Shown one piece after another: positions 5,256 through 59,226 of a stretch of 64,000 nt of DNA. Origin of the DNA: Gossypium raimondii (Eukaryota; Streptophyta; Magnoliopsida; Malvales; Malvaceae); NCBI RefSeq assembly GCF_025698545.1, contig NC_068565.1, positions 2,170,001-2,234,000 on the forward strand, read 5' to 3'. The first letter of the stretch is position 1. Each line of letters opens with the position of its first letter. The notes beneath the pieces are model-generated. The model was not told the DNA's origin. It worked only from the letters and a program-made list of their open reading frames with translations, and ran no database searches. The position numbers and the translations under genes are program-made.

Positions 5256-8200
5256 ATGAAAAATTCAAGTGGTGGAAAAGGATCCATGTCGACTGCTAGT
5301 TCAATTACTACTTGGAAAGCAGGAGATGTAGTTCCAGTTCCAGATCAGTTCCCTGCTGGTTTGCGTGTGCTTGTTGTTGATGATGATCCAACATGTCTCA
5401 TAATCTTGGAAAAAATGCTAAGAAATTGTTCATATGATGGTACAATCACAATTTTCTTCCTTGGGTTTTCTTTAATTCTTCATTTTGATCACTAATTTCA
5501 GTGTTTAAGATAGTAATTTTGTTGTTTCTGTTTTAGGTTTTCAATAAATTTTTTTTGGCTTGTATCGATTTTGTTTGTGGGTACATATAGTGGGGCGAAA
5601 AGGAATTGATCTTTGTTTCTTGGATTTTGGGAAATTATGAAACTTTATAATGCTTTCTGCTAATTTGCTTGAAGTATTTCATTAGCTATAAAGGCCTGTT
5701 TTGCTTTGATTTGTGCATATATATATATATATATATATATGTAAAACATAGGGAGTTCCTTTGGAGCTAAGAGGTTGATATTCTAGTAATTTGATGGATG
5801 ATTGGTTGATTTGTGATTGTTCATTTTCCAGTTACCAAATGCAATCGAGCCGAGACCGCATTATTGAAGCTACGCGAGAACAGAAACGGGTTCGATATCG
5901 TTATCAGCGATGTCCATATGCCAGACATGGATGGATTCAAACTTCTCGAGCATATTGGTTTGGAGATGGATCTCCCTGTCATCAGTAAGCACTCTTTATC
6001 ATAAATGTTTGTCATGGATTTACTCACCGTGAATTAACGATTTACTCGGGCTTGGATTTCGTTATGGCCTCATGTTCGACTTGTATTTTCTGCAGTGATG
6101 TCGGCGGATGATGGAAAAGATGTTGTCATGAAAGGTGTTACACACGGTGCCTGCGATTACCTAATCAAACCAGTTCGAATTGAGGCACTGAAGAACATAT
6201 GGCAACATGTGGTTCGGAAGAGGAAGAATGAGTGGAAAGACTTGGAGCAGTCGGGAAGTGTAGAAGAAGGAGATCGGCAGCCAAAACAATCTGAAGACGC
6301 AGATTACTCATCCTCGGTTAATGAAGGAAATTGGAAAAGCTCGAAAAAGAGGAAGGATGATGAAGATGAAACTGAGGATAGAGATGATACATCCACGCTA
6401 AAGAAGCCGAGGGTTGTTTGGTCCGTTGAGCTCCATCAACAGTTCGTTGCAGCTGTTAATCAACTAGGCATCGACAGTATGAGCCTTTTACCCATTTCTT
6501 TTATGAAATTACTATATATGTTAAAACCTTATAGTCATAGTGTTTATTTTCCAAAAACCGGTGAAACTCCCTTGTGCTTTTACACTATGTTATTCAGTCT
6601 GGGGTCTGAGTGTCGGATTCAGTTATGCTCAGTTTTGGCAAATAACTTGAGGATTTGAGTTGAAGCGTGTTTCCTTGGTTAGCGTGTTTCCTTGGTTAGC
6701 GTGTTTCCTTGGTTAGGGATATTTCAATATCGATGTTGTATTACATTGTTGTTTATATAAGCTCATGATTTCGGATAAAATTATGTTACTTTTGCCAAAA
6801 GAATCGAGTATTAAGTCCTTGTTTATGGTTGAAATATGTTTTCGACCACAACTATTTGCCTGTTGATTTTTTTTTGTTTCTCTTCGTTGACATTTGCTGA
6901 CGTTTTATCTTTTACTTCAGAGGCTGTCCCGAAGAAAATTTTGGAGTTGATGAACGTTCCTGGCCTTACCCGAGAAAATGTTGCTAGCCATCTTCAGGTA
7001 CAGTACATGTTCACTAAATATACAAACTTCTTACTAGCCTAGATTTGCATCTAATAAATATACAAACTTCTTACTTGCCTAGATTTGCATCTGATAAATA
7101 GTTCTCGGAAATCAAAATTATGTTTTATTCACTAATGATAATTGTTTCGTTGTCATGTGATCAGAAATATCGGTTGTATCTTAGAAGGCTGAGTGGGGTA
7201 TCACCACACTCATGTAATCCGAATAATTCTTTTATGAACCCCCAAGATGAAACTTTCGGTCCGCTGTCTTCAGTCCATGGGCTCGATCTGCAAACGCTTA
7301 CTGCCACTGGTCAACTTCCTGCACAATGTCTTGCCACACTCCAAGCAGCTGTGCTCGGTCGGTCAACTGCTAAATCGAGCATACCTATGCCCCTTGTTAA
7401 TCAAAGAAACATTTTTAGTTTTGAAAATCCAAAGTTGAGATTTGGAGAAGGGCAGCAACAACATGTGAACAATAATAATAAGCAAGTAAATTTACTTCAT
7501 GGAATTCCAACAACAATGGAGTCAAAGCAGCTTACCAGCTTGCGCCGCACCTCACAATCGATAGGAAACGTAAGTATGCAAGTTGCTCCCCACGGTGCAC
7601 AAAGCAGTCAAAACAACTCATCATTGATCGAGATGGGTCAGCCATTGTCGAGAGTCCAGATACTGAACGATTCAACTGTTCCATTATCTGTGGGGCAGCC
7701 TATAGTACCAAATGGAATTGCTGCAAATGTCTCTACACGAAATGGGATTCCAGAAAATATCCGAGCCCCTGGTTATAATCTGGTTTCACAGACCTCTTCG
7801 ATATTGAATTTCCCCATGAATCATGCTTCCGAACTACCTGTTGATTCTTTCTCCCTCAGAAGTACACCGGGAATGTCTGATCACACATCGAAAGGTGCTT
7901 TTCACGAAGATTTTAACTCAGAAATTAAAGGATCAGGGGGATTCTTGCCTACTTACGATGTATTTAATGACTATCAATATAAATCCCAAAATTGGGAGCT
8001 ACAGAATGCAGGCATGATATTAGAAGACTCTCAGCATTCAAACTCTCTTCAAGGCAACCTTGATCTCGCGCAATCGGTTTTAGTTCAACAAGGATTTCCT
8101 TCGGGCCAAATAAATGGACAAAACAGGAGTGTACCCATTGTAAGCAAGGCGATGTTCTCAGCCGGAGATAGTACAGAACCTGGGAATCTGCTAAATGTCA

Positions 8201-8482
8201 ATCATCATCTCAACACAATTCGTGCTGAAAATACGGTTCGGGTCAAGTCCGGGAGTGTTGCAGATGGGAATCCTTCCAATCTATTTGCCGATCACTTCGG
8301 ACAAGAGGATCTCATGATTGCTCTTCTGAAACAGGTTGGTTTTTTTATTCTCTTTTATTCACTTATCAATGGGAATATTCATTTATACATACAATTTGAT
8401 TTTCTGACAGCAACAAGGCATCGCACCAGCCGAAAACGAGTTCGATTTCGATGGGTATTCCTTGGATAATATCCCAGTGTAG
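5256..8482 (+). CDS. Type-B two-component response regulator, ARR1/ARR2-like
   Basis: Six exons (5256-5439, 5832-5984, 6096-6476, 6921-6997, 7165-8334, 8411-8482) splice in frame to about 678 residues. The receiver domain runs from about residue 33 ([12 protein letters not shown]) through [12 protein letters not shown], which carries the phospho-acceptor Asp, to [15 protein letters not shown] Lys/Glu-rich acidic linker follows. Next comes the GARP (Myb-like) DNA-binding domain, [20 protein letters not shown] to [20 protein letters not shown]. The long Gln/Asn/Ser-rich C-terminus is an activation region. It ends [33 protein letters not shown], the conserved type-B tail. Known role of the family: nuclear transcription factors activated by His-to-Asp phosphorelay in cytokinin signalling. 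The start was chosen at MKNSSGG because the adjacent paralogue also begins at the equivalent point. The neighbour at 11344 is a tandem duplicate. Confidence 0.95.
6665..6715 (+). repeat. 17-bp tandem triplication in intron 3
   Basis: The unit GCGTGTTTCCTTGGTTA occurs three times head to tail without a mismatch (6665-6681, 6682-6698, 6699-6715), inside intron 3 of the type-B response regulator. Perfect identity implies recent slippage. Confidence 0.9.
7015..7100 (+). repeat. Short direct duplication in intron 4
   Basis: A segment of roughly 45 bp (AATATACAAACTTCTTACTAGCC then AGATTTGCATCTAATAAAT) occurs twice in succession inside intron 4 of the type-B response regulator, with one or two differences. 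It lies between exon 4 and the exon that begins KYRLYL and does not touch the splice sites. Confidence 0.75.
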
Positions 8483-8569: not shown

Positions 8570-8677
8570 CAAGAAACTGGATTTGCTTCGCTCCAAGAAC
8601 TGCATCAAGAAACTGGATTTGCTTCGCTCCAAGAACCGCATCAAGAAACTGGATTTGCTTCGCTCCAAGAACTGCAT
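8570..8677 (+). repeat. 36-bp tandem triplication in the 3' UTR
   Basis: Three head-to-tail 36-bp units (8570-8605, 8606-8641, 8642-8677), each starting CAAGAAACTGGATTTG, differ by a single base. They lie about 90 bp after the stop codon of the response regulator. The unit length is a multiple of three and lacks stops in several frames, which creates spurious open frames on both strands. Confidence 0.9.
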
Positions 8678-10194: not shown

Positions 10195-11150
10195 TTGGTG
10201 TAATAACCAATTTTAACACTTCAATGTTTACACATTCTATTAATTTGATTCTATATCTTAAAAATAACAAATTTAGCCCTCAATATTTATAAAATTTGTC
10301 ATTTTAATTCAATTCTAAAAATCAATAAATTTAACCTTTGAAATTTACAAAATCTATCAATTTAGTTCCAATTTTAAAATTTCAAAATAAGAGAGAATAA
10401 TTTAAAATATTCATTTATTTATTTTTTTACTTTAACAATGACATGTTAGGATAATAATGCACATTTTCTCTTTTTCTATCTTGAAGGAATTTTTTTAGAA
10501 TAATAAACCCTTTGAATCGGTAGCGATTCGGATGTTTTAATGGTGTTCGATTAACTCGAGTACATAGTGACACGTTTTTGTTATTTGATTGTTAAAAATA
10601 AAAAAATCTTTAAGACACTTTTTGTATTACTTTAACGCTTTCTATCCTAATAATTCAAACAAAATTTCTCTTCCTTCAACTTTTTCACATGTAGGTTTTT
10701 TTATTAGCCTAATAATAAATTTAATTTTTTAATGTTTACGCATTTTATCAATTTAATTCTAAATATTCAAAAAATCAATAAATTTAATTTCTCAATATTT
10801 ACAAAATTTGTTTATTTAGTTTAAATTCTAAAAAATTCAAAAATTAAAAAAAAATCATTTTTTTACTTTAACAATAACATGTTAGGATAATAATGCACAT
10901 TTTGTCTTTTTCCATTTTGAATGAATCTTTTTCGGAATAATAAAGTTCATCGAATCAGTAGTGATTCAGACCTTTTTAAAAGCGCCACGTTTTGTCAAAA
11001 TTAGCGGTGCTCGATTAACTCAAGTACATAGTGATACGGTTTGAGTATTTAATTATTAAAAAAACAAATCTTTTAAGGCACTTTTTTGTAATATTTTAAC
11101 GCTTTCTATGCTAATAATTCAAACAAAATCTTTCTTCCTTTTTCACCTTT
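10195..11150 (+). repeat. Tandem duplication of a ~480-bp promoter-side block
   Basis: Two diverged copies lie head to tail, about 10195-10695 and 10696-11150. Shared landmarks are ACATGTTAGGATAATAATGC (10441 and 10878), TTCGATTAACTCGAGTACATAG versus TGCTCGATTAACTCAAGTACATAG, and TAACGCTTTCTAT.CTAATAATTCAAAC (10631 and 11098). The second copy abuts the 5' leader of the receiver-only response regulator that starts at 11344. Confidence 0.75.
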
Positions 11151-11343
11151 ATATCTCTCAACTCTGGCTTTTGTTTTTCAACACGGTATCAATAAAAAAT
11201 CTTTCTTTCATAATTTATTCTCTCTTTTCTTTTCTTTTTTTGTTCATAAATTATTATTGTAATCGCTTAGTGAGTTCAAATTTAAGCATGTGTAAAAGGC
11301 AGTAGCATCTTCATATAGCATTTTTCCCCCTTTTTTTAAACAG

Positions 11344-13256
11344 ATGAATCCAAGTAATGGAAATGGATCCATGTCGACTGCTAGCTCAAGCGGTGCGTGG
11401 GACGGTAGAGATCAATTTCCTGCTGGTTTGCGTGTGCTCGTTGTTGACGATGATCCAACATGTCTTATGATCTTTGAAAAAATGCTAAAAGCCTGCTTAT
11501 ATCAAGGTACTAATCAACAATTTCTTTAAATTTTCATTTTGAACACTAATTTCAAGTTGAAGTTATTTTGGTTCGGGTTTATGGGTTTGTATTACTTCTT
11601 CTATAGTTTGAATATTTTTAGATTTAGATTTTTCATATTCCATGGTTGAATTGAGTTTGAATTCATGTTAATTGAATTGGATTTTCAGATTTAAGTGAGG
11701 ATTGAGTGTATTTCAAATGTGTAAACCTGTCCATGAGCTAGGTAGACCATCTGACCCGACTTGAGCTAGGGTTGATTAAATAATTTTTTGCCTTTGGCAT
11801 GTTAAATTAAATAAATTTTAAAATATTTTTATTTTTATTTTAAATTTAATTTAATTATAATATATAAATATTAATATAAAATAATATGTTTTTAATATTT
11901 GGGTAAATTCCCAAAATAGTCACTTTTGTTTCCCTCAGTTACATTTTAATCACTGAGCTGTTAATGGTGTAACAGTAAGCTGACGTGACACGTAAACCAT
12001 CATTTTAAACAAAATTTTTAGGTTAAATTATACAATTGATCTTCATTTTTTTTCGTTTTGAGCAATTTAATTTTTTTCTTTTATGTCAACTTTCCTTTTC
12101 TTTTTCTTTTTTTCATTCTCTTCTGATTTTCCCTCTATTTTCCCCCCTTCTTCATCTCTTTTAACGGTAAAAGAAAAAAATCACATTGCTCAAAACAAAA
12201 AAATATATAGGGACCAATTATATAATTTAACCTAAAATTTACGTTTGAAATGATGATTTAACGTGCCACATCAGCTTACCGTTACACCGTTAACAATGAT
12301 TAACGCTCAGTAACTAAAATGTTACAACACGATAACGTAAGTGACTAAAATGTAACCTGAGACAAACATAAATGACTATTTTAATAGTTTACTCTTAATA
12401 TTTTTATTACTTTGAAGGATTGAGACAAGACCGGATTTTTTTAAATTTAAATCCGACTCATGAATAAGTCTACCATATGATTGAAAATCTACAATAAAAA
12501 AATTTTATTTCGAGCCTAGCATATACTGAAAACTGGAATATATTTGAAGTAAAAATAAATTTGAACTGATATTGAATCAATGCCTATTGATAGCATGCCA
12601 CTTTATAATGCTTTGCCTTTTTTGAGATTACCTATTTTCATAAATTTGATGTGTGAATGTTTACAGTTACGAAATGCAACAAAGCTGAGACTGCATTGTC
12701 GGTGCTACGTGAGCACAAAAACGAGTTCGATATCGTTATCAGTGATGTCCATATGCCAGACATGGACGGATTCGAACTTCTCAAGCATATTACTTCGGAG
12801 ATGGATCTCCCTGTTATCCGTAAGAACCTATTATTTATCATTTTGCTTTGGATTCATCGAGTTCGGAGTAAATTTCTTAATTTTGATCCGAATTCGAAAA
12901 ATTAATCCGCTTAACCCAAACCAAACTTGCTCGAATCCGAAATAAAACTAAACTTGAATTGAAAATGATTTGACAAGTAACCAAAAATGATCTGAACTTA
13001 AAAAGATTAGATTCTATAATGATCCAAACCTAATTAAGCCTCAACCCCAAATTACACAAACTCGAAAATAAATTTCAACCTGAAATGACTTGAACTTGTA
13101 TTTTATGCAGTGATATCGGCAGATGCTAGAAAGCAAGTTGTTATGGAGGGTGTTACATATGGTGCTTGTGATTACTTAATCAAACCGGTTCGTATCGAGA
13201 CGCTCAAAAACATATGGCAGCATGTGGTTCGGAAGAAGGCTCGAAATACGGTCTGA
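11344..13256 (+). CDS. Receiver-only response regulator, truncated tandem copy of the type-B gene
   Basis: Three exons (11344-11506, 12667-12819, 13111-13256) splice in frame to about 153 residues. The receiver is complete: [39 protein letters not shown] with the acceptor Asp, and [20 protein letters not shown] with the conserved Lys. Exon borders and the 153-nt exon 2 match the paralogue at 5256-8482. The reading frame stops a few codons after the receiver ([10 protein letters not shown], stop at 13254). No linker, GARP domain or activation tail is found downstream before the hAT element at 13463. All phosphorelay residues are kept, so a stable short protein could still accept phosphate, like a type-A or type-C regulator. 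Alternatively it is a decaying copy that still looks open. Intron 1 has been enlarged by a Mutator-type foldback element. Confidence 0.8.
11901..12394. mobile_element. Mutator-type foldback MITE with 9-bp target duplication
   Basis: The ends are GGGTAAATT... and ...AGTTTACTC, flanked on both sides by the exact 9-bp direct repeat TTAATATTT (11892-11900 and 12395-12403). Long inverted arms contain TAAGCTGACGTG and CAYGTCAGCTTA-like blocks, GTTAAATTATACAATTGATC and its complement. A 9-bp duplication is typical of Mutator-like elements. It sits inside intron 1 of the receiver-only response regulator. There is no transposase. Same family as 41883-42676. Confidence 0.85.
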
Positions 13257-13462
13257 TTTCAATTGAGTTTTAATTTTCAAATTGAAGTTCGAGTTGAGAT
13301 AAAAATGGAATAATTCAAACTTAAATGAGTAAATTAGTTATTTTTCTAGTAAAGAAAAAACCTTCATTTGTATGCTCGGAATTGATTAAGTTTGATTGAC
13401 TTTACTTTATCAGCTACTCGGAATCAAATATTAAAGATAATTGAATTCAACTTACTTAATAC

Positions 13463-13964
13463 TAGAGGTGTTCATGGGCCGGGCGGCCCGGCCCGGCCCG
13501 ACAGCCCGCCCGAAATATGGGAGGGTTTGGGTAAAAATATAGGTCCGAAATATGGGCTTGGGCAAAAAAACGAGGCCCGATTAAAAAATAGGCCGGGCCT
13601 CAGGCACAACTTTTTGGGCCGGGCCTGGCCCGGCCCGGCCTGGCCCGAATATAATAAATAATTTTATTTTTAAAATTTTAAAATACTTTTATTAAATTTT
13701 TTTAATTTTAAAATATTTTTAAAATACTTTTTTTATTTTTTTAATTTTAAAATATTTTTAAAATACTTTTTTAAATTTTAATTTTAATTTTTAAAATAAA
13801 TTTTTGGTATTTATTTAAAAAACGGGCCGGGCCCGGGCTTGTGATTTTTTCCCGGGCCGGGCCTGGGCAAAATTCTAAGCCCATATTTCAGGCTGGGCCA
13901 GGCCCGGGCCTAGGACCCGGGCCAAAATTTTTTCTGGGCCCGGCCCGGCCCATGAGCACCTCTA
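13463..13964. mobile_element. Non-autonomous hAT element, GGCCCGGCCC family
   Basis: The terminal inverted repeats are TAGAGGTGTTCATGGGCCGG and its near complement ending GCACCTCTA. They are flanked by an exact 8-bp target duplication CTTAATAC (13455-13462 and 13965-13972), the hAT hallmark. The subterminal regions are GC-rich runs of GGCCCGGCC, while the core is very AT-rich. There is no transposase. An 89-codon open frame at 13392-13661 is an accident of the GC-rich end. Confidence 0.9.
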
Positions 13965-14152
13965 CTTAATACTGTTTGGCACCCAAGAAAATTCTGGGCT
14001 TTCCTTGAAAGTTTATTTTCTTTCTCTTTCCACCCTTATTCTAACTCAATAGTCCCCATTTTTTCCCTTCCTTTTCCTGGGAATTAAATGTGAAAATTTA
14101 CCTTTTTATTTTAGCCCAAGTTTATTTAAACCATCGTTCAATAAAACAAAAT

Positions 14153-14612
14153 AGTAAAAATACCTCTTTGGTCCCTTTAAATTTTGATATTAAGCAAATT
14201 GATCTCTTTAAAAAATTAGAGTAATTTAATCTCTACCAATTTTGAAAAAGAGTAACTAAGAACAATAAATAAAAAGTTAATATTTTTCTTCAATTTTACA
14301 TATTTTTATAAATATAATAATAAATTTAACCTCAAAATTTATACACTCAATCAATTTAATCTTGATTTAATAATTTTAACTCAAAACATTTACTAATTTT
14401 TCAACTTTTACATAAAATATGTAAGCAAGAAAATTAAATTTATTATGATACCAATCAAAATTAAAAACAATCGACAATAACCATCTACAGCGAGATTAAT
14501 TTTCAGTTATTGGTCAATTTTAAAATTTATAGAAATTAAATGCTCCAACTCTTTTAAGAGTAATCAATTTACTTAATATTAAATTAAAAAAACCAGAGAA
14601 ATGTTTTTACCA
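14153..14612. repeat. Foldback MITE, 'TTGGTAAAAA' type, copy 2
   Basis: The left arm AGTAAAAATACCTCTTTGGTC... with TTTTGATATTAAGCAAATTG is complementary to a right arm ending ATGTTTTTACCAA. Related to 9609-9944. It lies 3' of the GATA gene. Confidence 0.6.
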
Positions 14613-14859: not shown

Positions 14860-15486
14860 CTAAGCATAAACAGAACCATAAGAAAGAGCCATTAATAGAA
14901 GAGCAGCTTGTTCTTCTTCTCCTAATTTTCTCATTTGATTCTCAACGGTTGATTTTTGCATCAAAACTTTTCTTCCCAAAGATATCAATCTTTGCTTTAA
15001 ATTATCCCCTAAATTTTTAGGGTTCTTTGATTTCTTGTCTAAAACTGCCCTTCTTTTTTTCCTGCTTTTGATCCCACAAGCATTGCACAAAGACTGCAAA
15101 AAAAAAAAAAACCCAAAATCACATAAAAACCCAGCCAGGAGTTAAAGATCAAAGATAAAAAAAACTTGTTGAAGTTGAAAAAAAAATAGAACTACCTTGG
15201 GACCAGCTGGCCCACCTCTCCAAAGGGGGGTTTTAGAAGTACCACAATTAGCACAAGTTTTCTTGATTTGTTCATTGCAAATTATTTGATTTTGAGTTAT
15301 TTTTGGTGAAATGGTTTCTGGGGGTTTCCTGTTTGGATCTTTAGAATTTGATCCCTGCAAGAAAATATGATAAAACAATAAAGAGAATCAGCTGAGAAAA
15401 AAATGGGAAAGTTAAAGCTCATATGAACAAATGAAGAACATTTTTAAGAGATAATGATGGCTTACTTTTTCACTCGGATCCAACAT
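14860..15486 (-). CDS. LLM-domain B-class GATA transcription factor
   Basis: Three exons on the minus strand (15466-15486, 15196-15354, 14860-15093) give about 137 residues. The zinc finger spans exons 2 and 3: CANC, then GTSKTPLWRGGPAGPKSL (18 residues), then CNAC. That is the C-X2-C-X18-C-X2-C pattern of plant class B GATA factors, followed by the basic GIKSRKKRRA. The C-terminus EEQAALLLMALSYGSVYA contains the Leu-Leu-Met motif that defines LLM-domain B-GATAs. The family's known roles are greening, cytokinin and light responses. The first exon encodes only seven residues (MLDPSEK). It was chosen because it splices in phase and the ATG is the first in that exon. The whole protein is close to the short GATA15/16/17 type in length and layout. 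Confidence 0.92.
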
Positions 15487-35646: not shown

Positions 35647-38600
35647 TCAACTGAAGTTGAATCCACCGGATGGAACTTGAAGCCCATTCTCCCCAAACTG
35701 AAAACTTTGCTGAGTACCGTCAGCAGGAGGTAGCGTCTCTTCATCCTCCTCCAGCCAGTAAGTCTCGAGAATCTTGACTGCCTTCTCATATATCTCACTA
35801 TTATCATGAGTCTGTAGATTTTCAATCTTCTCTAAACCATCAGCATCTTCTATCAGTTGGGCACAGAAGTTAAATTCTACAGCACCCGTGGCCTTCTCAG
35901 CTTCACCAACCTTCAAAAAGTTCTCCAGCCCCTCTAGACAGACCATTATAATTCTTGGATCAGGGCATGCAAGAAGATCACACAGTGGTTTTATGCATCC
36001 TTGACTGACCATGTACCTACATATACAGATAAGGAGAACAAGTTTCTCATCAATTCTTTGGCAATGGAACTAAGGCGGGAAAAACCATATTACTTGGACT
36101 TGGGGTGAGTGTCGGATACGAGTATGTGCCCAACACAAGTATGTTCAATTTTTGCCAAGTTTATTCATATATTGAGTGGCCAAAGTTCAACAATACCAAA
36201 AGAATCGACACAAACTACTTACTTGATTTGCTCATGGGCACCACCCGAAGTAGCATTTGAAATTGCCCATGCCGCTTCTTTCTTTACATCGAATTCAGCA
36301 TTTTGAAGTAGGTTGACCAGGGGCCCAATTAATCCAGCATTGATCACAGCCTATATAATTTTGAAATATAATAATCAGCATAACTTACTAAAAAAAATCA
36401 GTACCAAAAAAACAAATTTGAAAATGTTTGAAGCAACACTTTCCATGCTTTACTCACCTGAATCTGTTCCTTGTTTCCAGCTGTAATGTTTGAGATAGTC
36501 CAGCATGCTTCCTTCTTTATACTCTTTTTATAATTATTGGTCAATAGGTTCATAAGGCATGCTAATGCACCATGATCAATAATACACTGAAATGGAAAGT
36601 CACGAGATCAGAACAAACTAAAATAAAATATAAACCGAAAGATGCAGAAGGTCTAAAAATGAGACAAATCCTATGCCATACCTGAGTCTGTAAATCATCT
36701 CCAGTCACAATATTTCCAACAGTACGAAGAGCAGGAATGAGCACTGAAGGAGATGGATTGCTGCTAAAACACAAGTATAATCTCTCAGGTTAACAGAAAA
36801 GTCAAAACAACCAAAGATGTTAGGAGCAGTTCTACTCACAGCAGGAGCTCGACAAGGCGTGGGCAAACTCCTGCTTGAATCACAGCTTGAATTTTGTCAT
36901 TTGTACCATCAGACAGATATGAGAGAGCCCAACAGGCATCAGTCAGAACTTCTTCATCATTTGAATGAACAAGACGTTCAAGCGCAGGTAGAGCTGGTGT
37001 CACCTAGTGAACAGATTGCAGCATTTGAAAGCTCCATTAAAAGAAAGGGAGGGAGCATAAAAGAATAATGCAACGAACAAGATGAAAACCTGCTCAAATG
37101 GAGGCTGTGGCTTGCCCCTACAGAAATTTGATAATGTCCAAGTCGCATTTCTCAGCATTGACAGCTTAGCATGTTCATTTAACTGTGCTAATAGAGGCAT
37201 CAAAGCTCCATGACTGAGAACAAGATCACGGCATCTAGGGGAATCACCAGCAATATTCCCCAATGCCCACACAGCCTAAGAATTAACAATCAAATTACTC
37301 AGTCCAAAATTCTATATTCTCCTTTCTAGTTAAAACAGCAATCATACCAGAAAAGTTGTCAAGGGCACAAAGTGAAATCTAGGGGCTAGAACCCTTATAT
37401 TGAATAAGACGCAAGGCCAAAAAAATAAAGGATTCCCTGAGTGAAGTGAAGTGCAATATGTATGTGTTTTTCAATGTAAATATATATATAAAAGTTTAAG
37501 ATATATAGTAAACTCTAAAGGGTAGTCTGGTTTACCTACAAAACATCTAACTTTTTGTTTGCCATTATGAACAGTTTCCTTATGGTCCATATCTGTTGTT
37601 GGACTAAAAATTTTCAAAAGTAGAGAGTTGATACTATCTCCCTTCTTACCAGTAAAGAAATATCTACTAAAAAGAGCTTTAAAATAAAATAAACTAAAGA
37701 ACAGATTACTTCAATCAGGCAAGCTTTTTAAGCCTATCACCTTACGAAAAAGGGCACCTAGGCTATCCAAACATGCGTTGTATCATACAAACAGAGGCGT
37801 TTTTGTTGTCTAACGCTCCTTTGACAACAGTAATCCCAGAATTACAAGTATCACACTTAAAGGGTATAGTTTTTACTGGCATACCTGCTCGCGGACATCA
37901 TCACTTGGTGAAGCAAGAAGCTTTACAAAAATCGGAACAGCACCAAGATCAATTACTACCTTTGTATTGTCTGAGGTTCCAGAAGCAATATTCGTAAGCG
38001 CCCAAGCAGCCTCAAACTACAGATTCCAAAAAAGAAAAATACTACCGAAATTAGGATATAAAATGAACTCCTGATTCTTGAAAAAAGTGATTATTAACAG
38101 TCACTAACTTATACCTGAAGCTGTGGAAAATCTTCCCTACCAAGGAACTCAACAAAACGGGGAACGACGCCTGACTGTATAACTTCCTCAATTGGAGGAC
38201 TTCGCTCTGTTAACACATGTATATTTAATTAAGAGAATTCAGATAAAAAATAAAAGAAAAACAAAGTGAAATGCATGAATATACCAATCGAAAGCAATTT
38301 TCGAAACTGAGTAGTCGCCTCCAGCTGTGCAGCACCGTTATCGGACCAAACGCCAGCAACCATCGAAGGAAGACTCTCCAGCTGCAAAAAATAATAATAA
38401 TAAGCCCTAAATCACTCAAATTTCAAGAAAAGGGGAACAATTTGAAGATTTCGGTCGTGCGGCAGTGGTGTTCAGTTTTCACCTTCTTTTCGACATTAGA
38501 GGAGTGAAGAGAAGCAGCGAATTGTTGAGCTTGTAGGCCTTCGCGGCGTTTCTTTAGTAAACTCTCTTCGCGCTTGCTTTTACGGATCTCGACCATGTTG

Positions 38601-38692
38601 TCTTCCCTTCTACGACGGCCTTCCTCGGCGTCAACCGCCACCTTGTAGCGGTTGCGGCGGGCCTCGGTTCTCGTGCTCGGTCTCAACGACAT
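35647..38692 (-). CDS. Importin subunit alpha (karyopherin alpha), ten exons
   Basis: Ten minus-strand exons (38483-38692, 38285-38381, 38115-38206, 37885-38016, 37090-37275, 36840-37003, 36682-36763, 36458-36586, 36223-36350, 35647-36016) total 1590 nt and splice in frame to 529 residues, the usual length. Residues 1-70 form the importin-beta-binding region ([40 protein letters not shown]). Armadillo repeats follow with the Trp/Asn ladder that binds the [70 protein letters not shown]. The C-terminus [20 protein letters not shown] precedes an acidic segment and ends GGFNFS. Role: adaptor linking nuclear localisation signals to importin beta at the pore. The layout is close to Arabidopsis IMPA1. 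Confidence 0.97.
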
Positions 38693-38919
38693 AGTGGCGG
38701 CTGCTTGCCTTTGAAAAAAACAAATCCTAGGGAAGCAGAAAGCTAAAAGAAAAAAAATGGAGATTTTTATTAAGGATCGGAAGAAGTGAAAAAATCTGGA
38801 GTTGATGGGACTTTTTTCTTTGTGGAGAAGTATTTTAAAGTTCAAAGCAAAAATGAGAAAAATAAAATAAAATAAAAGGGCAACGGAGAATTAGGAAAGA
38901 CTTAAAAACGGAAGGATGG

Positions 38920-58867: not shown

Positions 58868-59226
58868 AGGTAAAAGTATCATAGAGGTCCTTGTATTAAG
58901 AGTTGGGTTGTCTTTTGTCCACTCTACTCAAAAAATGGGTAAATTAATCATTGTATGTTAGATCAAAGAGCAAATTGATCATTTTGTTAAAATTTTCATC
59001 CACTTTTATTGTTAAAAACTAATCTTTGCACATCAGCATGAGGTACTATCTAATTATTTCATTAGCCACACCAATTTTTAACAATGGAAATGAATGAAAA
59101 AGTTAACAGAAATGATCAGTTTACTCTTTTATCTAACACATAGGGACTAATTTGCTTATTTTTTGAGTAAAATGGACAAAATGTAATATGACTCCTAGTA
59201 TAAATGCCTTCATAATACTTTTACCT
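58868..59226. repeat. Foldback MITE
   Basis: AGGTAAAAGTATCATAGAGGTCC... and ...GCCTTCATAATACTTTTACCT are inverted repeats. The arms share TTTTGTCCACTCTACTCAAAAAA and its near complement. Non-coding. Confidence 0.65.

Follow-up and report, generated by a model that had tools for sequence, protein, structure and literature searches.

A tandem copy of a type-B response regulator gene of Gossypium raimondii that ends after its receiver

We found that the gene at positions 11344-13256 of the analysed window, a 64-kb stretch of G. raimondii DNA (2170001-2234000 of contig C1), codes for a brief N-terminus and one complete type-B receiver, and that it shares its strand (+) with a full-length ARR1/ARR2-like type-B response regulator gene at 5256-8482. 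We propose that this short gene has been retained, under relaxed constraint, as a receiver-only protein that would take up phosphate and act as a mild attenuator of a cytokinin-type phosphorelay, a functional reading to which we give about an even chance.

The short gene has three exons with GT-AG borders and 462 nt of coding sequence, corresponding to a protein of 153 aa and approximately 17 kDa. Exon 1 (11344-11506, donor GTACTA) carries the N-terminal leader and the start of the receiver (DDD), exon 2 (12667-12819) is the phospho-acceptor exon (SDVHMPD) and lies within a block that is 84% identical to 5825-5999, and exon 3 (13111-13256) holds the end of the receiver (LIKPVR and the last helix), a six-residue tail (KARNTV) and the stop. 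The introns, GTACTA...TTACAG and GTAAGA...ATGCAG, interrupt the very codons at which introns 1 and 2 lie in the long gene. The product of the long gene, of 678 aa and with receiver, GARP/Myb domain and C-terminal region, is encoded by six exons (5256-5439, 5832-5984, 6096-6476, 6921-6997, 7165-8334 and 8411-8482). The matching DNA blocks of the two genes are 74-85% identical and 101 of 125 aligned receiver residues are the same, in agreement with an earlier sequence-only reading, which had described the short gene as a tandem copy of a type-B gene with a common receiver and common exon borders. The same reading had assumed a common leader. This held for the coding leader (74% identity over 74 nt) but not for the non-coding one, in which short conserved blocks were seen by eye, whereas local alignment scores against the neighbour stayed within shuffles (31 against a shuffle maximum of 32, and 34 against 44 in a second comparison). 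Directly 3' of the long-gene stop, three near-identical head-to-tail units of 36 nt were observed by eye (8570-8677).

All five phosphorelay residues (D35, D36, D81, S108 and K130) are present in the short protein, as had been claimed. With Pfam (E up to 0.001), Response_reg (PF00072, 1.5e-25) alone was detected in the short protein, and Response_reg together with Myb_DNA-binding (PF00249) in the long one; the best PDB match of the short protein by sequence was ARR1 (8xat, E 1.8e-64). The frame contained no stop, frameshift or broken splice site, and the introns are retained. The likeness of the DNA to the long gene stops at 13236, directly past the last receiver helix (HVVRK), which bears out the view that the gene ends right after its receiver. 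The new tail, for the most part, and the stop come from the sequence directly past this break (13238-13468, +). In a search of the genome (750.8 Mb in 281 contigs), which skipped very common words and so falls short of proving rarity, these 231 nt matched only themselves, and therefore no transposon or other donor for the new tail was identified.

We take contig C1 to be chromosome D01, from chromosome correspondences that would number the contigs D01-D13. Several other positions in a published gene table of the G. raimondii family (PMC10102465) agree with this numbering. The short gene is already known from that table, as it is probably GrRR2.1 (XP_012453261.1, LOC105775279, B456_002G029300), and no test of its function was found in the literature. 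The short protein and the published GrRR2.1 are equal in length (153 aa), pI (6.07), instability (44.00), GRAVY (-0.134) and aliphatic index (91.05), and their molecular weights are 0.17 Da apart, likely owing to mass tables. The published position, chromosome 2, 2181758-2184016, forward and with UTRs included, is on the same strand as the coding span at 2181344-2183256 and has each of its ends less than 800 bases away. In 2023 GrRR2.1 was classed as type-B, and both GrRR2.1 and GrRR23 were stated to have no Myb domain (PMC10102465). According to the text of that paper chromosome 2 carries just two genes of the set. Among 58 of the 59 rows of its Table 2 we found no second type-B gene on the chromosome of GrRR2.1; its section on duplications leaves the tandem pair unnamed, and the text of its expression section does not mention GrRR2.1. 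Neither the long gene nor a paralog at C10:46.82 Mb could be placed in those 58 rows, so that the published family count looks incomplete. A literature search by the identifiers of the short gene and of its guessed neighbour found this paper only.

The sequence-only reading had suggested looking for transcripts of the short gene and for its counterpart in related species. A 2025 study of G. hirsutum (PMC12346069) describes a tandem pair on A01 (GhARR1/GhARR2) and another on D01 (GhARR45/GhARR46). In each, the second member (GhARR2 or GhARR46) is one of the eight type-B members that the study lists as lacking Myb, and Ka/Ks is given there as below 1 for every tandem or segmental pair. Judged from chromosome, order and missing domain, GhARR2 and GhARR46 are probable orthologs of the short gene. 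If they are, the short gene would predate the A/D split, and the copy in the A subgenome, at least, would be transcribed, since GhARR2 is among 13 genes that thidiazuron up-regulated at no fewer than four time points (PMC12346069). The printed record, as far as seen, is thus in line with a counterpart in both G. hirsutum subgenomes, and it speaks for transcription in part: the gene is annotated in G. raimondii and GhARR2 is induced, but GhARR46 is absent from the list of 13 induced genes.

Besides the short gene itself, the loci nearest to it were the long gene and the C9 and C10 paralogs, with 71-77% identity per exon and GARP matches in all of them. The receivers of the short and long genes were separated by a dS of 0.41-0.58 and a dN of 0.10-0.15 (four methods on two column sets, plus two methods in a separate run). 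For the long gene, dS was 0.65-0.71 to the C9 and 0.94-0.99 to the C10 paralog, and for the short gene it was 1.0-1.3 to both. As the Ks of the cotton polyploidy is approximately 0.5 (PMC5975490), the duplication would be of about the same age as this polyploidy or slightly more recent, provided that the long gene is the sister of the short gene. At C11:29385500-29391500 (match 1545-2525) we also observed part of the long gene as a dispersed copy, with the N-terminus MKNSSGGK... and intron 1 kept. In the nucleotide tree the short gene grouped with the long gene and this C11 copy (support 74), and the codon tree joined it to the C10 paralog instead (support 69). The log-likelihoods of the three main trees were -2096.88 (beside the long gene), -2097.51 (beside C10) and -2099.91 (outside the group), the latter two being 0.6 and 3.0 log units worse than the first. 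Intron 1 of the short gene scored 59 against that of the neighbour, with a shuffle maximum of 34, in comparison to 30 and 31 against C9 and C10, both within shuffles. For the 600-nt upstream stretch the scores were 34 (neighbour), 40 (C9) and 39 (C10), and C10 alone exceeded its shuffle maximum; cut points in C9, C10 and C11 were off by at most 3 nt in these comparisons. Adjacency and intron 1 favour a placement of the short gene beside its neighbour, whereas the upstream stretch and the codon tree do not.

Selection was estimated with our own branch codon model in five set-ups, using nine-row and four-row alignments. Placed beside its neighbour, the short gene had a dN/dS of approximately 0.24 against a background of 0.023 (nine rows) or 0.049 (four rows), which corresponds to a constraint five to ten times weaker than on the full-length paralogs, and in each of the five set-ups its dN/dS departed from that of the background (p = 0.001 or less). 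A dN/dS of 1 was rejected in three of the five (p = 0.002). All three put the short gene beside the long gene, and one of them had the highest likelihood among the nine-row trees; beside the C10 paralog the value was p = 0.062 and outside the group p = 0.97. The comparison of synonymous and non-synonymous change, also suggested by the sequence-only reading, thus spoke against neutrality in the first placement but did not firmly do so in the other two. By this model the short gene evolves under relaxed constraint, though on the favoured tree more slowly than under neutrality, and the rejection of neutrality depends on the tree. The C11 copy has an in-frame stop in exon 3, of which the first residues are unmatched. 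Its dN/dS of 2.3 was indistinguishable from 1, as fixing it at 1 costs 0.34 log units, and the copy can therefore be used as a neutral comparison. Under simulated neutrality, with substitutions only and indels ignored, an open frame with all five active-site residues was kept at frequencies of 0.001, 0.035 and 0.178 for 0.32, 0.16 and 0.08 substitutions per site, and an open frame alone at 0.064, 0.199 and 0.427.

A late loss of constraint, by which an intact-looking and perhaps transcribed duplicate would be turning into a pseudogene with no present function, is a possibility that we rate below retention and well above the other readings. Constraint that gave way to free decay for the final 20-27% of the branch would yield the same average dN/dS, so that a recent loss of function is compatible with the value of the short gene. 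The elevation of dN/dS over the background, and the two set-ups in which it was not confidently below 1, point in the same direction, and the C11 copy shows that decay occurs within the family. At 14 of the 122 receiver columns, moreover, the short protein differs where the long, C9 and C10 proteins agree, and 12 of these 14 private residues occur at those columns in no other row compared. On the other hand, the undamaged frame and splice sites and the five kept active-site residues argue against decay, and the Myb-less tandem members on A01 and D01, if they are orthologs, mean that the copy outlived the A/D split (PMC12346069).

We consider it rather unlikely that the short gene has undergone a full class switch, in which the loss of output and the divergence upstream would have led to a type-A-like negative regulator that responds to cytokinin, is induced by thidiazuron and has persisted from before the A/D split, with an activator and its own attenuator lying adjacent. 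Thidiazuron is cytokinin-active, and the induction of the probable ortholog GhARR2 is only suggestive of a type-A-like cytokinin induction. As a point against the attenuator that we propose, three of four type-B binding motifs showed no excess in the kilobase upstream of the short gene. The fourth, AAGATYTT, was observed twice with 0.4 expected, which was reached in 24 of 200 single-base shuffles and is not significant.

Slightly less likely still is a protein that is functional without being a phosphate sink, and that would bind phosphotransfer proteins, full-length type-B receivers or other partners, perhaps in the cytoplasm. Of the 14 private changes, nine lie within columns 64-100 of the alignment (37 of the 122 columns; P = 0.006, for a region picked after inspection), and this clustering would agree with such a binding role. 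We take these columns to run from helix 3 to helix 4 of the receiver fold. Helix 1, the usual docking face of receivers for phosphotransfer proteins, has one private change. With the C11 copy set aside, two of the 14 changed columns are invariant across the remaining 14 rows, and the converse changes in the long protein number three. The pattern would agree with a receiver in which docking persists while contact with a GARP domain has been lost, and we regard it as a lead and not as a result. The predicted localisations, cytoplasm for GhARR2 (PMC12346069) and cytoplasm/nucleus for GrRR2.1 (PMC10102465), also suit a binding role, although they are predictions, and binding alone does not need the phosphorylation residues, all of which are kept.

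That the gene model is incomplete, with a GARP exon downstream that is joined in some transcripts, is highly improbable, because a tblastn search of the 64-kb window with the long protein past its receiver, the long gene being masked, gave a best E of 0.70, which is chance level, the other GARP matches on the contig in the genome-wide search lie at 1.37 and 48.6 Mb only, and the published GrRR2.1 protein is equal in length and in four computed properties (PMC10102465). A downstream GARP exon for the short gene was accordingly rejected as a candidate, and the absence of output domains, which the sequence-only reading had reported and which such an exon would have overturned, stands for the window.

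Several further features were observed around the short gene. A possible 5'-UTR intron of 158 nt (11186-11343, +; GTATCA...AAACAG, abutting the ATG) was derived from the published GrRR2.1 span and transcript length, and it is the sole GT-AG interval of that length in 10900-14200 outside the coding sequence. In a control by hand on GrRR1, the five coding introns took up approximately 794-797 nt against the published 798, which leaves no space for the listed sixth; the exon counts of the table in PMC10102465 are therefore not dependable, and the 5'-UTR intron is just a possibility. Just 5' of the short gene, 10421-10676 and 10857-11140 form a direct duplication of approximately 260-280 nt, for which the genome search found no further copies. 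Comparison with the window and the genome showed a repeated element with inverted arms within intron 1 (11900-12400; 2336 candidate places, with non-self copies of approximately 80-85% identity among the 40 that were scored), and the genome search showed a high-copy GC-rich repeat approximately 210 nt downstream of the gene (13467-13965; 3684 candidate places, with non-self copies of approximately 83-90% identity among the 40 scored). A GATA zinc finger over two exons lies on the minus strand approximately 1.6 kb downstream (14863-15306), ending LLMALSYGSVYA by eye, with its 5' piece above and its 3' piece below the Pfam cut-off; from this ending we take it to be an LLM-type B-GATA gene. Also on the minus strand are pieces of an importin-alpha-like gene (35650-38845), with an importin-beta-binding domain and Arm repeats, and a MIR7502 microRNA precursor (58985-59108) that scored above the Rfam gathering threshold.

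In the retention that we propose, an ARR1/ARR2-like type-B gene would have been duplicated in tandem long ago, and one copy would have lost everything past the receiver. This copy would then have persisted as a small gene that has two coding introns and a receiver-only product of 17 kDa. This product is presumed to be translated and to be phosphorylated by histidine phosphotransfer proteins like its parent; having no DNA-binding output, it would be a phosphate acceptor that competes with the type-B regulators or drains them. Since all active-site residues are present and there is no output, the short receiver should take phosphate without gene activation. Type-B receivers obtain their phosphate from phosphotransfer proteins, a supply for which type-A regulators are thought to compete (PMC6518804, PMC6370222). 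However, overexpressed ARR2 was not blocked by type-A proteins, although these did block the endogenous response; ARR22 blocked both, which was attributed to phosphatase activity (PMC6370222). It is therefore doubtful that a receiver on its own would be a strong sink. If functional, the short gene would be a clean natural case of an activator that, minus its output, came to attenuate its own pathway, and this in a crop that is defoliated with thidiazuron. The long gene and the decayed C11 copy provide built-in comparisons. Compared with what was seen of PMC10102465 and PMC12346069, our analysis newly gives the point at which the similarity breaks off, the age of the copy, and estimates of selection for which a decayed copy serves as comparison. 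As the gene is already tabulated and receiver-only type-B relatives are known in Medicago, we regard the find as useful rather than surprising.

With respect to the known classes of response regulators, the short gene has a type-B receiver, to which the C9 and C10 paralogs and the long gene are nearest and for which ARR1 is the best match in the PDB, but not the GARP/Myb domain of a type-B regulator, as Pfam returned PF00072 only and no GARP sequence lies downstream in the window. It has the receiver-only architecture with a phospho-acceptor D that is found in type-A regulators, but by search ranking alone, the trees containing no type-A rows, its receiver does not belong to the type-A clade. 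The locus at C13:351846, presumably the type-A gene GrRR9 from its position, matches PF00072 and is missing from the list of loci nearest to the short gene. Ranking alone also places ARR1 and the type-B paralogs nearest, and not a hybrid-kinase-like receiver as in type-C, no named type-C or kinase receiver having been compared directly. We conclude from these comparisons that the short gene is a type-B-derived receiver without output domains, that it is not a full type-B regulator and that, by ranking, it is neither type-A nor type-C.

Type-A regulators are receiver-only phosphate acceptors and known dampers of cytokinin signalling; the short gene has this architecture in common with them, but in sequence it goes with the type-B receivers. 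The type-C regulators ARR22 and ARR24 are likewise receiver-only, but their receivers resemble those of hybrid kinases (PMC6518804, PMC6370222), whereas the short one resembles ARR1. Closest in kind are the type-B-derived receivers without Myb. In G. hirsutum, GhARR1/GhARR2 and GhARR45/GhARR46 are tandem in the same way, with a Myb-less second member (PMC12346069), and in Medicago truncatula MtRR31 and MtRR32 are receiver-only members of the type-B group, like the short gene, which differs from them in having D as the phospho-acceptor where they have E (PMC6518804).
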